DNA from: Roseovarius sp. TE539
Lineage (GTDB): Bacteria > Pseudomonadota > Alphaproteobacteria > Rhodobacterales > Rhodobacteraceae
Length of the DNA stretch: 64,000 nt
Reading direction: 5' to 3'
Assembly (NCBI RefSeq): GCF_003298505.1
Contig: NZ_QNGB01000004.1
Coordinates: 1-64,000 of the forward strand
Shown here: positions 13,293 through 22,493 of the stretch, piece by piece
Layout: each line of letters opens with the position of its first letter
Numbering within the stretch: the stretch's first letter is position 1
Translations under genes and position numbers: made by a program
Notes under the pieces: generated by a model
Told to the model about the DNA's origin: nothing
The model's database searches: none
Seen by the model: the letters and a program-made list of their open reading frames with translations, nothing else

Positions 13293-13901
13293 TCAGTTCT
13301 GTGAAAGGCGGGTCGTCAGCCTGTAGAAGTGATGGACCCCTATCGTGGCCGTCCGGGGAAAGACGCGCGACCAGTCCGGTGACACCTGGCGGGTATGATA
13401 ATGTGTCGCTCCGTCAGTCAGGGGGCGATCGGCGCCACCGGTCATGAGCTTGGCAATCTTGCTGACCCTGCGATAGGCGCGTTGCTCGCTGATGACTTCT
13501 TTCTTGCCATCGCAAGTATAGGTGAACTGACAGGCGAACTTGCGTCCCGTACCCTGATTTATCACACCGCAGACAGACCCCGGGAAGCGCGGATTATCGA
13601 CACGGTTCATGATCACTTCGGCGACCGCAAACTGTCCCTTGACGCTTTCGCCACGGGCCTCGAAGTAAAGGGCTTCGGCCAGGCACTTCCAACCATCACC
13701 GAATTTGCGCGGTTTCTGAACGTCCAGCCAATCCCGCGTATAGCGAATGCCGATGCCGACTTCCTCAAGGTATCCGGCGAGGCGGGACTCCGGGATCGTG
13801 TTCAACGCCCGCCGTTCATCATTGACCAGCCGGTCGACCTTCGTGTCGGCCAAGGCCATGCCTGAAAACGCCAGAATGAATGCCAGGGCGATGCGTGTCA
13901 T
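13293..13901 (-). CDS. SleB/CwlJ-type cell wall hydrolase, secreted
   Basis: 202 residues from the ATG at 13901, which gives a clean signal peptide (MTRIALAFILAFSGMALA, cleavage after residue 18). The longer open frame has no signal and no homology. The Hydrolase_2 domain contains CLAEALYFEARGE, with the presumed catalytic Glu, then AVAEVIMNRV and the paired cysteines around SVCGVINQG and FACQFTYTC. Spore-forming bacteria use relatives in germination; in Gram-negatives they act as muramidases in envelope turnover. It is probably periplasmic. Confidence 0.88.
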   Translation of the reverse strand: MTRIALAFILAFSGMALADTKVDRLVNDERRALNTIPESRLAGYLEEVGIGIRYTRDWLDVQKPRKFGDGWKCLAEALYFEARGESVKGQFAVAEVIMNRVDNPRFPGSVCGVINQGTGRKFACQFTYTCDGKKEVISEQRAYRRVSKIAKLMTGGADRPLTDGATHYHTRQVSPDWSRVFPRTATIGVHHFYRLTTRLSQN

Positions 13902-14146
13902 GCCAACCTCCAGGTTCCTTGCCGGACCAGATCCGTGCAAATACCGGCGCCTCTTACCGAATTTCTGCCCTGCCGTCCAGCTTGGCCCCGGTGAGCCCGG
14001 GCTCGACGGGTCAATCGGGGGCACGGATGGCCGCGTTCGCGCCATTCATTCGCAAACGCAACAGCACCGTCCAACCCGGCCAAATCGCCCTTTTAAAGGG
14101 GTTCCCGTTTCAAAACGGGCCTGCATCGCAGTGGGCCGCGCATCCC

Positions 14147-19039: not shown

Positions 19040-19567
19040 TCAGTACCCTTCGGGCGGTTCCGGACAGTCTTCGGGCGCTGGACGTCCGTCGAAAACGACT
19101 TCGCCGCAGTGATTTATCTGGTGCCAGACATAGCCGCGACCGTCGGACATGACGGCGACGACCCTGTCGATTCCGTACTGGATGTTGCGCTGTCCCAGGA
19201 AGGCGAGCGCGTCCCCTTCTTCCAGTGCCATGCCGATCTCCTCCGCGTCGAAGCAATCGAACCAGCCGGGCGCGTTCAGTGGTTCCGCCGCTTCGTAGGG
19301 CACAAAGGTTTCGGTCAGGAGCGCATGACTTGTCGGTGTCGTGAAACAGGCCCGGTAGCGGATCGGGGAGCTGTCCGCATCGATGGCTTCGAACGCTTCG
19401 TACAGCACCGGTTCGGGCTTTCCGGAAACCAGCGAGGTCAGCCGCACATCGCCGTCGCCGGTCGCGCGGACGGGCTCGTAGAAATGATAGACCTGGAGGT
19501 AATAAAGGGCCGCCCCTGCCACCAGTGCCGCGATCACGATGATCACCGATAGGATTTTTCCCGTCAC
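19040..19567 (-). CDS. small single-pass membrane protein between glyQ and glyS (DUF6446-like)
   Basis: 175 residues from a GTG at 19567 that overlaps the glyQ stop (GTGA), so it is coupled to glyQ. One N-terminal membrane helix ([21 protein letters not shown]) leads to a periplasmic domain with three cysteines ([27 protein letters not shown]). I believe this is the family called DUF6446, found at this spot in Rhodobacteraceae; the family name is from memory. No function is known. Its place inside the glyQS operon is conserved context, not evidence of a synthetase role. Confidence 0.75.
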
Positions 19568-20493
19568 TTCGAATGCCCCCCGGCGGCGGTCCGGACATAC
19601 GCGTCTGCACATTGCCGGGCCAATGTCCGCACCCTCCCGATATAGGCCTGCCGCTCGGTCACGCTGATCACGCCGCGGGCGTCCAGAAGGTTGAAGATAT
19701 GGCTGGCCTTGATGCATTGATCATACGCGGGATGCGCCATCACGATACGCTGGCCGGTCCTCGGGTCCTGGTCGGGCTGGTTCAGGATCGCCGCACATTC
19801 GGCCTCGGCCTCTTCGAAATGGCGCAGCAGAACCTGCGTGTCGGCCACGTCGAAATTCCAGCGTGAATATTCCTGCTCCGTCTGGCGGAACACGTCTCCG
19901 TAGCTGAGCGGGATCGGCGCGGCGGGATCGTTGAAGGGCATTTCCATCACGTGATCCACGCCCAGCACGTACATCGCCAGCCGTTCCAGACCATAAGTCA
20001 GTTCGCCCGATACGGGATGACAGTCATGCCCGCCCACCTGCTGGAAATAGGTGAACTGGCTGACCTCCATGCCATCGCACCAAACTTCCCATCCAAGGCC
20101 CCAGGCGCCCAGTGTGGGGCTTTCCCAGTCATCTTCGACAAAGCGGATGTCATGGGTTTTCATGTTGATGCCGATCGCTTCGAGAGACCCGAGGTAAAGC
20201 TCCTGCAGGTCGGGCGGGCTGGGTTTGATCAGCACCTGGAACTGGTAGTAATGTTGCAGGCGGTTGGGATTTTCGCCGTAGCGGCCGTCGGTCGGACGCC
20301 GCGACGGCTGCACATAGGCCGCCGCCCAGGGCCGCGTACCAAGGCTTCTCAGCGTGGTGGCGGGATGAAAGGTGCCGGCCCCGACTTCCATGTCATACGG
20401 TTGCAGGATCACGCAGCCGCATCCGGCCCAATAGGCCTGAAGACGCAGGATGATATCCTGAAAACTGGTTGGTTTGCCGGAATTTTCGGCCAT
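19564..20493 (-). CDS. glyQ: glycyl-tRNA synthetase alpha subunit
   Basis: 309 residues from the ATG at 20493, which follows a GGGGGAAAAG ribosome site. The catalytic subunit starts [25 protein letters not shown] and has class II synthetase motifs ([58 protein letters not shown]). It makes glycyl-adenylate and pairs with GlyS. First gene of the operon glyQ / membrane protein / glyS. Confidence 0.97.
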
Positions 20494-20657
20494 CTTTTCC
20501 CCCGGACAGTGCCGCGAATTTCGCATGCTCTTCCTAGGGCCCCCGCAGGGGAGGGTCAATCACGCGGGGCGCCATATTTTAGGTGCATAGATGCGAGGAT
20601 TTGGTAAAACTCCCCGAAGTGCAACCAATTCCGGTAACGGCAAAGGTAACCCACGTG

Positions 20658-22493
20658 ATGACAAGATTCATTCTGGCCTCGGTACTATCGGTCCTTCTCG
20701 GTGTTCAGACGTTGCAGGCGCAACAGGAGTCGGATCCCGGCGGCGCTTTCTGGGTTCTGATAGAGGCGCAGCCGGGCCTGACGGAGATCACCAATTCCCT
20801 GAGAAGATATGACAACCGGCTCGAGGATGTGAACGGTTTCGATCACGGTTCAGGCTGGTACGGTGTTGCCCTGGGACCGTATTCAAGGGCCGATGCCGAA
20901 CGGGTTCTTGTCACCTATCGCAATCAGGGTCGGATACCGCGTGACAGCTACATCAGCAACGGATCGGACTTCCGGCGTCAGATATGGCCCGTCGGCGCCG
21001 AACAGCGCGATCCCGAGCTCGCCAATGCCCCGGCATCCGCGGCTGAAATCGACATCAGGGCGGATGATATTGCCGGAGAACAGTCCGCGGAAGTTGACGC
21101 CGCTGAAGCCGATCCCGGTCCCGTCGTGGCGGAGGCGCGCGAGCCTCAAGTCGTGAGGGAGGCCGAGTTGCCGGAAGAAACTCTCGCCGAGGCACGCGCC
21201 AGCGAACGCCGCCTGAACCGCGAGGAACGCATGCAGATTCAGATCGCGCTCAAGTGGGCGGGCTACTACGCAGGCCGGATCGACGCCGCGATCGGGCCCG
21301 GAACCCGCGCCGCCATGGCGGGGTGGCAGCGGGACAACGCTTTCGATCGCACCGGTGTGCTGACCTCACGGCAGAGGGCGGAACTCTTGCGGCAGTACAA
21401 CGCAGTTCTCGACGGTCTGGATCTGGCGCTTGTGCGTGACGAGAGGACCGGCATAGAAATGCAGATGCCCACAGCCGAAGTGGCCTTTGCCCGTTACGAG
21501 CCGCCTTTCGCACATTTCGATGCCCGCACCGATTTGGGGGCGCGTGTTCTTCTGATCAGTCAGGAGGGCGATCGTGATACGCTCTATGGGCTGTATGACA
21601 TCATGCAGACACTGGAAATCGTGCCGCAGGACGGCCCGCGATCACGCGAAGGAGACAGTTTCACGCTCGTTGGACGGAACGATCGGATCGTCTCGCATAC
21701 CGAAGCGACGCTGCGCAACGGTCGGATCAAGGGGTTCACGTTGATCTGGCCGGCCGGCGACGAAGAGCGGCGCACCCGCCTTCTGTCCGAGATGCAGGCC
21801 AGTTTCACCCGTCTCCGGGGTGTGCTCGACCCGGCACAGGGTTGGGATGACGATCAGAGTGTCGATCTTGTTTCGGGTCTGGAGATACGCAAGCCCCGCC
21901 TGTCGCGTTCGGGTTTTTACGTGGACCGGCGTGGGACAGTCGTGACCACGACCGAGGTTGTGGCGAATTGTGGCCGGATCACCATAAACCATGATTATGC
22001 GGCAGAGATCGCGACACGGAATGCCGAACTGGGCATCGCGGTCCTGCGCCCGCGCGAGGCGCTGGCCCCGATGAGCTTTGCCGATTTCCAGCAATCCGTA
22101 CCGCGACTCAAGTCCGGTGTTGCTGTCGCCGGGTATTCTTATGGAGGTGTCTTGAATGCACCGACGCTTACCTTCGGAAAACTGGCTGATTTGCGCGGCC
22201 TCAACGGAGAGGAGGACCTCAAGCGCCTCGCGCTCGCCGCGCTGGAAGGTGACGCCGGCGGGCCGGTGATGGATACCGGTGGCGCGGTTCTGGGCATGCT
22301 CCTGCCGGAGACGGGAGGAGAACGCAAACTGCCCGAGGATGTCAGTTTCGCCGCCGATTCCCGGGCTGTGCTGAAGGTTCTGCGAGAGGCGGGTGTTTCA
22401 CCGTCAGCGACCTCCGAGATAGACGACGTCGCACCGGCGGACCTGAGCGACCGCGCCAATGGCATGACAGTTCTGGTCAGCTGCTGGGATTGA
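20658..22493 (+). CDS. secreted SPOR-like / peptidoglycan-binding protein with an inactive trypsin-fold domain
   Basis: 611 residues. Signal peptide MTRFILASVLSVLLGVQTLQA. Residues about 29-100 look SPOR-like (FWVLIEAQPG, GWYGVALGPYSRADAERVL). A peptidoglycan-binding domain follows near 184-255 (IQIALKWAGYYAGRIDAAIGPGTRAAMAGWQ). The C-terminal third aligns with trypsin-like serine proteases, but the His position reads TTTEVVANC, the Asp position NAELGIAVL, and the GDSGGP serine is Ala533 (GDAGGPV). All three catalytic residues are therefore replaced. I infer a periplasmic, wall-associated binding or regulatory protein. Start ATG at 20658; the frame is open upstream. Confidence 0.8.
   Translation: MTRFILASVLSVLLGVQTLQAQQESDPGGAFWVLIEAQPGLTEITNSLRRYDNRLEDVNGFDHGSGWYGVALGPYSRADAERVLVTYRNQGRIPRDSYISNGSDFRRQIWPVGAEQRDPELANAPASAAEIDIRADDIAGEQSAEVDAAEADPGPVVAEAREPQVVREAELPEETLAEARASERRLNREERMQIQIALKWAGYYAGRIDAAIGPGTRAAMAGWQRDNAFDRTGVLTSRQRAELLRQYNAVLDGLDLALVRDERTGIEMQMPTAEVAFARYEPPFAHFDARTDLGARVLLISQEGDRDTLYGLYDIMQTLEIVPQDGPRSREGDSFTLVGRNDRIVSHTEATLRNGRIKGFTLIWPAGDEERRTRLLSEMQASFTRLRGVLDPAQGWDDDQSVDLVSGLEIRKPRLSRSGFYVDRRGTVVTTTEVVANCGRITINHDYAAEIATRNAELGIAVLRPREALAPMSFADFQQSVPRLKSGVAVAGYSYGGVLNAPTLTFGKLADLRGLNGEEDLKRLALAALEGDAGGPVMDTGGAVLGMLLPETGGERKLPEDVSFAADSRAVLKVLREAGVSPSATSEIDDVAPADLSDRANGMTVLVSCWD

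Follow-up and report, generated by a model that had tools for sequence, protein, structure and literature searches.

The locus and its domain architecture

We analysed a 64,000-nucleotide stretch of the Roseovarius sp. TE539 genome (hereafter, the window) and identified a gene that encodes a trypsin-fold protein lacking a catalytic triad. The gene, its domains and its divergent neighbours are located as follows.

19040–19717, - strand: DUF6446 gene (Pfam), which overlaps glyQ and lies just upstream of glyS
19564–20559, - strand: glyQ (glycyl-tRNA synthetase alpha, PF02091), the divergent neighbour and a marker of the locus across the family
20658–22493, + strand: the whole pseudoprotease gene, 611 amino acids (open reading frame and orthologues)
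20658–20720, + strand: signal peptide, residues 1–21, ending in TLQA before QQ (read by eye; helix at 2–16 in the AlphaFold2 model)
20748–20987, + strand: SPOR domain, residues ~31–110 (PF05036 in orthologues; order in the model)
21003–21182, + strand: linker, residues ~116–175, fast-evolving and partly disordered (omega, pLDDT)
21219–21380, + strand: PG_binding_1 domain, residues 188–241 (Pfam E 3.8e-9, above the cut-off)
21417–21815, + strand: PsbP/Mog1/DcrB-like domain, residues ~254–386 (separate AlphaFold2 model, fold comparison)
21891–22490, + strand: trypsin-fold (Trypsin_2) domain without catalytic triad, residues ~412–611 (Pfam, AlphaFold2 model)

The encoded protein thus runs signal peptide – SPOR – linker – PG_binding_1 – PsbP-like domain – trypsin fold. 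An in-frame GTG at 20583 lies upstream of the ATG, and the ATG at 20658 begins the signal peptide. The protein contains no lipobox cysteine and is thus predicted to be soluble in the periplasm. A single copy of the gene was found in the window's genome.

The N-terminal domain can be assigned as a SPOR domain at the level of the family. PF05036 was matched by 54 of 60 scanned orthologue N-termini (window included, out of 113 available; E≤0.5, best 4.4e-10), while Pfam returned no SPOR match in the window protein's own copy. In the AlphaFold2 model this region is arranged strand-helix-strand-strand-helix-strand. The linker that follows has pLDDT below 50 at residues 123–145, within a low-confidence stretch at ~111–150.

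A preliminary description of this DNA had listed SPOR-like, peptidoglycan-binding and protease-fold parts, and these stand; it had missed the PsbP/Mog1/DcrB-like domain at ~254–386 and the invariant cysteines C438 and C609. Its suggestion that the protein is wall-bound is supported by domain homology (PG_binding_1 and SPOR).

Predicted structure

The AlphaFold2 model of the window protein, built from 114 sequences, has a mean pLDDT of 90.6. Residues 411–581 adopt a chymotrypsin fold, as the preliminary description had expected of a structure prediction, and the nearest structure is DegS (3lgv; VIA-align Z 20.9, rmsd 2.2, 160 residues). Pfam matches Trypsin_2 at 418–547 (E 1.1e-12), scoring 49.3 bits where the cut-off is 27.6. 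Profile score and fold together place the domain in peptidase family S1 / Trypsin_2.

The nearest solved folds are the DegS/HtrA protease domains (3lgv, 2qf0) and Rv3671c (3k6y, Z 18.8), which share 18–25% identity with the window's trypsin domain over the aligned part. We take Rv3671c (3k6y) to be MarP; these proteins presumably all have an intact triad and PDZ or membrane parts. Pfam at E≤1 gave no PDZ match in the window protein, which terminates with the protease fold and thus lacks the PDZ domain of the HtrA/Deg proteins.

The middle domain is predicted to have a PsbP/Mog1/DcrB fold, a relation that rests on the predicted structure; the corresponding Pfam model was unmatched in the window protein at E≤1. 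Residues 246–412 were modelled alone with a pLDDT of 88.4. This model aligns with cyanobacterial PsbP (2xb3; Z 11.9, rmsd 3.7, 131 aligned residues), and also with 1eq6 (Z 10.1), DcrB (6e8a; Z 8.8) and LpqN (6e5d; Z 8.5), among many further structures of this type. Identity to these four PsbP/Mog1/DcrB/LpqN domains is 8–13%, and Foldseek matched the middle domain at E 1.8e-5.

Loss of the catalytic triad across Rhodobacteraceae

Alignment with active relatives places the window's E433, G459 and A533 at the positions of His57, Asp102 and Ser195. The open reading frame, its coordinates and the three substitutions are as the preliminary description had given them, and the window protein lacks the His57-Asp102-Ser195 triad of an active S1 serine peptidase. 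The three positions are:

21954–21956, + strand: E433, catalytic His position (E or D in 91 of 124 readable family genomes)
22032–22034, + strand: G459, catalytic Asp position (G in 114 of 124)
22254–22256, + strand: A533, catalytic Ser position (A in 92 of 124, S in 3)

Rhodobacteraceae is a large, largely marine bacterial family. We sampled 149 of its genomes, one per genus, and identified matches in 125 at E≤1e-20. The loci of all 125 were retrieved, and 124 were readable at the triad; the remaining one (L074) is cut by a contig end ahead of the protease domain. Among the 124, the His position is occupied by E (66), D (25), A (14), Q (11) and others, and never by H. A single genome has D at the Asp position. 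The Ser position is held by A, V (11), T (6), I (4), S or others. An intact triad is found in none of the 124 readable genomes. It is likewise absent from all 153 distinct sequences of a wider set (family loci, named loci from the genome collection and two loci from a class-wide draw), 149–151 of which have a residue at each position. Triad loss is thus general among orthologues, the comparison that the preliminary description had named as its refuting test.

Within the window's genus, 40 of 40 genomes match, and none of the 29 further genomes read has a catalytic residue at any of the three positions. The recent decay of an active enzyme, with the gene a pseudogene in the making, would fit the fragmentation of some orthologues, such as L068, which lies in two open reading frames. 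Fixation of the loss across the family, the uniformity of the genus and the purifying selection described below make it so improbable that we rejected it.

A shift of catalysis onto other residues would leave the protein a protease. Three orthologues do carry Ser at position 533 and one carries Asp at 459, but these lack the other triad residues. Across the trypsin domain, no column has His in more than 18% of sequences or Lys in half of them. The lack of a conserved His argues against relocated catalysis, which we consider highly improbable and likewise rejected.

Origin and variant orthologues

We built a tree of 113 trypsin domains. Its 73 dead representatives fall on one side of a single branch (SH-aLRT 100), and the dead clade joins three active proteases, L189 (genome G023), L246 (G052) and L248 (G134), with a support of 95. 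All three have an intact His-Asp-Ser triad with the motif GNSGGP, unlike the dead family, and share with it a sister trypsin domain and the same two cysteines. A second tree, with 8 long-branch rows removed (68 dead representatives), supports the dead clade at 100/100, the joint group at 100/100 and the three sisters at 94/80, with bootstraps not fully settled. Removing columns within two of the triad gave supports of 100, 91 and 81, respectively. Several deep branches are long and their placement is unsure, both here and in the tree of the PG_binding and middle domains described below.

The dead domains form one clade whose sister group consists of three proteases with intact triads, and a single loss of catalysis is therefore probable. 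The simplest history is that catalysis was lost once, before the sampled genera diverged, and that long conservation followed.

The ancestor likely already had the whole architecture. A PG_binding-like stretch is matched by the family profile in L189 and was recognised by inspection in L246 and L248, as was a SPOR-like N-terminus in L246; the middle region of the active sisters was assigned as PsbP-like by position alone. Pfam at E≤0.5 matched neither PG_binding_1 nor SPOR in the three sisters, and matched PG_binding_2 in L248 (E 0.27).

Three further trypsin-like proteins outside the main clade, L258 (G063), L259 (G139) and L303 (G005), have broken triads. The active-relatives profile matches L258 and L259 over much of their length, and L303 is matched by L258. 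These apparently represent further losses of catalysis, one or several; the branches of L258 and L259 are too long to place, and L303 is known from reading its sequence.

Some orthologues depart from the common architecture. In G023, the orthologue beside glyQ (L212) encodes two SPOR-like stretches (family profile, inspection), PG_binding_1 (Pfam) and the middle domain, and its open reading frame stops ~40 residues past the PsbP-like domain. Pfam gave no trypsin match in L212. The trypsin profile likewise matched no other open reading frame of that stretch, though this profile also missed the protease part of L188 (G030), which is strongly degenerate, and a decayed remnant is thus possible. 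The active sister L189 lies elsewhere in the same genome. A tree of the PG_binding and middle domains places L212 inside the dead clade beside L188 and L070, with moderate support and long branches, so that its lack of a trypsin domain would be a secondary loss. Conversely, L062:5971-7212 (Rhodobacter xinxiangensis) has lost the PsbP-like domain and retains SPOR, PG_binding and the dead trypsin domain. Taken together, L212 and L062 show that single lineages can dispense with one or the other of these modules. The orthologue in G114 (L068) is split into two overlapping open reading frames that match residues 152–415 and 411–610.

Conservation and selection in the dead domain

We compared column conservation between 68 dead and 34 active sequences. 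Seventeen positions are conserved (≥0.8) in both groups, including G531, G534, G535, P536, C438 and C609. A further 22 are conserved in the dead group and have, in the active group, a different commonest letter or a gap; these include R523, D532, G459, P465 and L548. The cysteines and two of the positions specific to the dead group are:

21969–21971, + strand: C438, invariant, also in active relatives (column conservation)
22224–22226, + strand: R523 (Arg 0.96 of 68 representatives; Gln 0.85 of 34 active relatives)
22251–22253, + strand: D532 (Asp 0.94 of 68 representatives; Asn 0.91 of 34 active relatives)
22482–22484, + strand: C609, invariant, in the C-terminal strand, also in active relatives (column conservation)

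The loop residues around the former oxyanion hole (G531, G534, G535 and P536) are thus retained, with the position-193 glycine, G531, present in 138 of 149 sequences. C438 and C609 are the only conserved cysteines of the trypsin domain and presumably form a disulphide. A charged cluster made up of the acidic residues at 433 and 532 and Arg 523 may occupy the former active site.

Omega for the trypsin domain (Nei-Gojobori) is 0.038–0.249 in the 20 closest of the 33 pairs above 72% identity; these pairs share members and are non-independent. The SPOR, PG_binding and PsbP-like domains have similar values. Values for the linker range over 0.07–1.9; in 16 of the 19 computable, non-independent pairs they are above that of the trypsin domain. 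These ratios indicate that the dead trypsin domain is under purifying selection. The preliminary description had held that the fold is kept without catalysis. The structural model, the omega values and the tree support this, and the original observation, while right, was understated: the loss holds family-wide, and the dead domain evolves under selection.

The trypsin domain might instead be a passive structural relic, with function residing in the SPOR, PG_binding and PsbP-like domains. L212 shows that it was dispensable at least once, and it is strongly divergent in L188 and in some long-branch orthologues. Against this, 124 of the 125 matching family genomes encode a trypsin domain (the remaining one being cut by the contig end), it is constrained like the other folded domains and has new fixed residues, and the converse loss is seen in L062, which gave up its PsbP-like domain and kept the dead trypsin domain. 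We regard a passive relic as possible, though unlikely.

Genomic context and distribution

Of the 108 orthologue loci that extend over at least 9 kb, 106 contain a glyQ homologue, and glyQ is the adjacent divergent gene wherever it is present among the loci inspected singly. The DUF6446 gene (104 of 108) and glyS (102 of 108) are similarly widespread, both on the divergent side. The window's downstream neighbour, an ABC-transporter gene, has a homologue in 1 of the 108 loci. The downstream gene is thus not conserved and the genomic context offers no functional hint. Compared by homology to the window's own neighbours, the 108 loci yielded no conserved operon partner or adjoining protease gene.

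We also identified a Cell Wall Hydrolase (Hydrolase_2) gene in the window (13293–14045, - strand), downstream of glyQ, glyS and a PEP-utilising-enzyme gene. We infer that it corresponds to RSP_1860, a Rhodobacter sphaeroides gene described as a Cell Wall Hydrolase and reported as a CenR target (PMC9275681). The motif given there for CenR, TGA-N8-TGA, occurs in 16 of 150 upstream stretches (from 153 sequences, measured back from the first position of the profile match), a weak excess over the 7.2 that mononucleotide shuffling predicts. Another reported CenR target (PMC9275681), the R. sphaeroides peptidoglycan-binding protein RSP_1880, co-precipitates with the divisome lipoprotein DalA (PMC10470522). 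RSP_1880 is probably not the orthologue of the window gene: it lies at 478.2 kb, and the orthologue in G051 lies at 450.5 kb. The available text of a Dinoroseobacter vesicle study (PMC7901474) names nothing recognisable as an orthologue.

In a class-wide draw, 53 of 289 genomes match at E≤1e-6. Full-length matches are confined to Rhodobacteraceae (the window's genome, G055, G170 and G399). Outside the family it is mostly the protease part that matches, at ~25–34% identity; 25 of the 26 extra-family open reading frames read have His, Asp and Ser, and in the other (L178) Glu stands in place of the Asp.

A glyQ match is present in 20 of the 24 family genomes that gave no match to the protein at 1e-20. 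Two of these carry a divergent orthologue beside glyQ: G030 (L188) and G023 (L212). For the remaining 18, no member was recognised among the longest open reading frames beside glyQ (743 bases were visible in G008), and no long match occurs among the whole-genome profile matches listed. The orthologue of Pseudorhodobacter turbinis lies at NZ_CP039965.1:559600-561267, on a 1.58-Mb replicon in the plasmid collection.

The distribution of active relatives bears on whether the protein serves an active periplasmic protease as decoy or allosteric partner, by analogy with magnetotactic bacteria, for which repeated pairing of active and inactive proteases is reported (PMC4794232). The window's genome encodes four other Trypsin_2 matches; two are strong and fall in the tree with an HtrA-like sequence. 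The dead protein and a long active relative occur together in G052, G034 and G134 and, more distantly, in G072 and G014. However, long active relatives are not general, being found in at least five dead-protein genomes among the matches listed, and this makes a decoy of a dedicated close paralogue less likely. The closest active relatives also occur without an intact dead copy (G004, G130 and G023), and no protease gene was found conserved alongside, with neighbours compared by homology to the window's own. A decoy or allosteric role is, in our view, rather unlikely.

Comparison with known pseudoproteases

The closest precedent in kind is MamO of magnetotactic Alphaproteobacteria, described as a trypsin-2 pseudoprotease that no longer catalyses but has come to bind metal, in a group where inactive protease copies evolved repeatedly (PMC4794232). 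As described, MamO resembles the window family in being a monophyletic bacterial trypsin-2-type pseudoprotease with an active ancestor and a non-catalytic role. The two differ in their residues: MamO retains His and Asp but has Thr in place of Ser, and Glu at 193, whereas the window family has lost all three and keeps Gly 193. They also differ in architecture. MamO uses two surface His to bind metal and carries a TauE domain at its C-terminus; the window family has no conserved His and is a SPOR/PG_binding/PsbP-like fusion. The window family descends from active enzymes, is conserved under selection and has lost the catalytic residues, which identifies it, from its sequences, as a trypsin-fold pseudoprotease. 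It has neither the surface di-His nor the non-glycine residue 193 of the MamO family.

By analogy with MamO, which shares the fold class and this kind of repurposing, the altered site could bind a metal or small ligand. We found no MamO-like di-His site, and no His column of the trypsin domain exceeds the 18% noted above; the lack of a conserved His argues against MamO-type metal binding. C438 and C609 are the only conserved cysteines and the position-193 glycine is kept, unlike in MamO as described, although acidic residues could still bind metal. A metal or small-ligand site is therefore quite improbable.

Dead serine proteases as such were already known, since a 2008 survey of prokaryotic serine proteases counted 42 putatively inactive homologues among 966 (PMC2605481). 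The terms 'peptidoglycan binding' and 'Rhodobacter' are absent from the main text of that survey (PMC2605481). Among the papers listed, from a collection without most subscription journals, we found no description of the Rhodobacteraceae pseudoprotease family; its absence from print does not follow.

Proposed function

The domain types suggest that the protein binds at the cell wall. SPOR domains prefer denuded, septal glycans. The window family shares a SPOR domain, and the predicted binding of denuded septal glycans, with FtsN, DedD and DamX, and is unlike them in being predicted to be soluble and in having a dead protease at its C-terminus. After export, SPOR and PG_binding_1 would fix the protein to peptidoglycan, consistent with the wall binding that these domains support.

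On the sequence evidence, the trypsin domain descends from a protease that lost its three catalytic residues, and purifying selection has since preserved it along with a distinctive set of conserved residues. The domain thus probably works by binding something and not by cutting it. Together with the PsbP-like domain, and braced by the presumed C438–C609 disulphide, it may bind a protein or peptide partner, in which case the protein would act as an adaptor or sensor tethered at the wall; a scaffold role, which the preliminary description had named beside sensor and inhibitor decoy, is also conceivable. We lean towards this overall reading, of a non-catalytic binding module, tethered to the wall and possibly septal, whose role as adaptor or sensor would probably lie in maintaining the cell envelope or in division.

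A more specific and doubtful proposal is that the dead trypsin cleft is a peptide reader. Anchored to septal peptidoglycan, it would capture peptides uncut and signal through the PsbP-like domain, as a Rhodobacteraceae-wide checkpoint of envelope or division that the other sampled Alphaproteobacteria did not show. Candidate ligands could include, for example, the ends of misassembled outer-membrane proteins and the stem peptides of the cell wall.

Few trypsin-fold pseudoproteases of bacteria seem to have an established role; MamO is the one we found. The pseudoprotease described here is encoded in most sampled Rhodobacteraceae genera, usually at the same locus. With its rare active sisters, one orthologue without a trypsin domain and one without a PsbP-like domain, the family offers a convenient system for studying the role of a dead protease at the cell wall. 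In Rhodobacteraceae genomes, moreover, a match to a trypsin-like profile does not by itself denote a protease.
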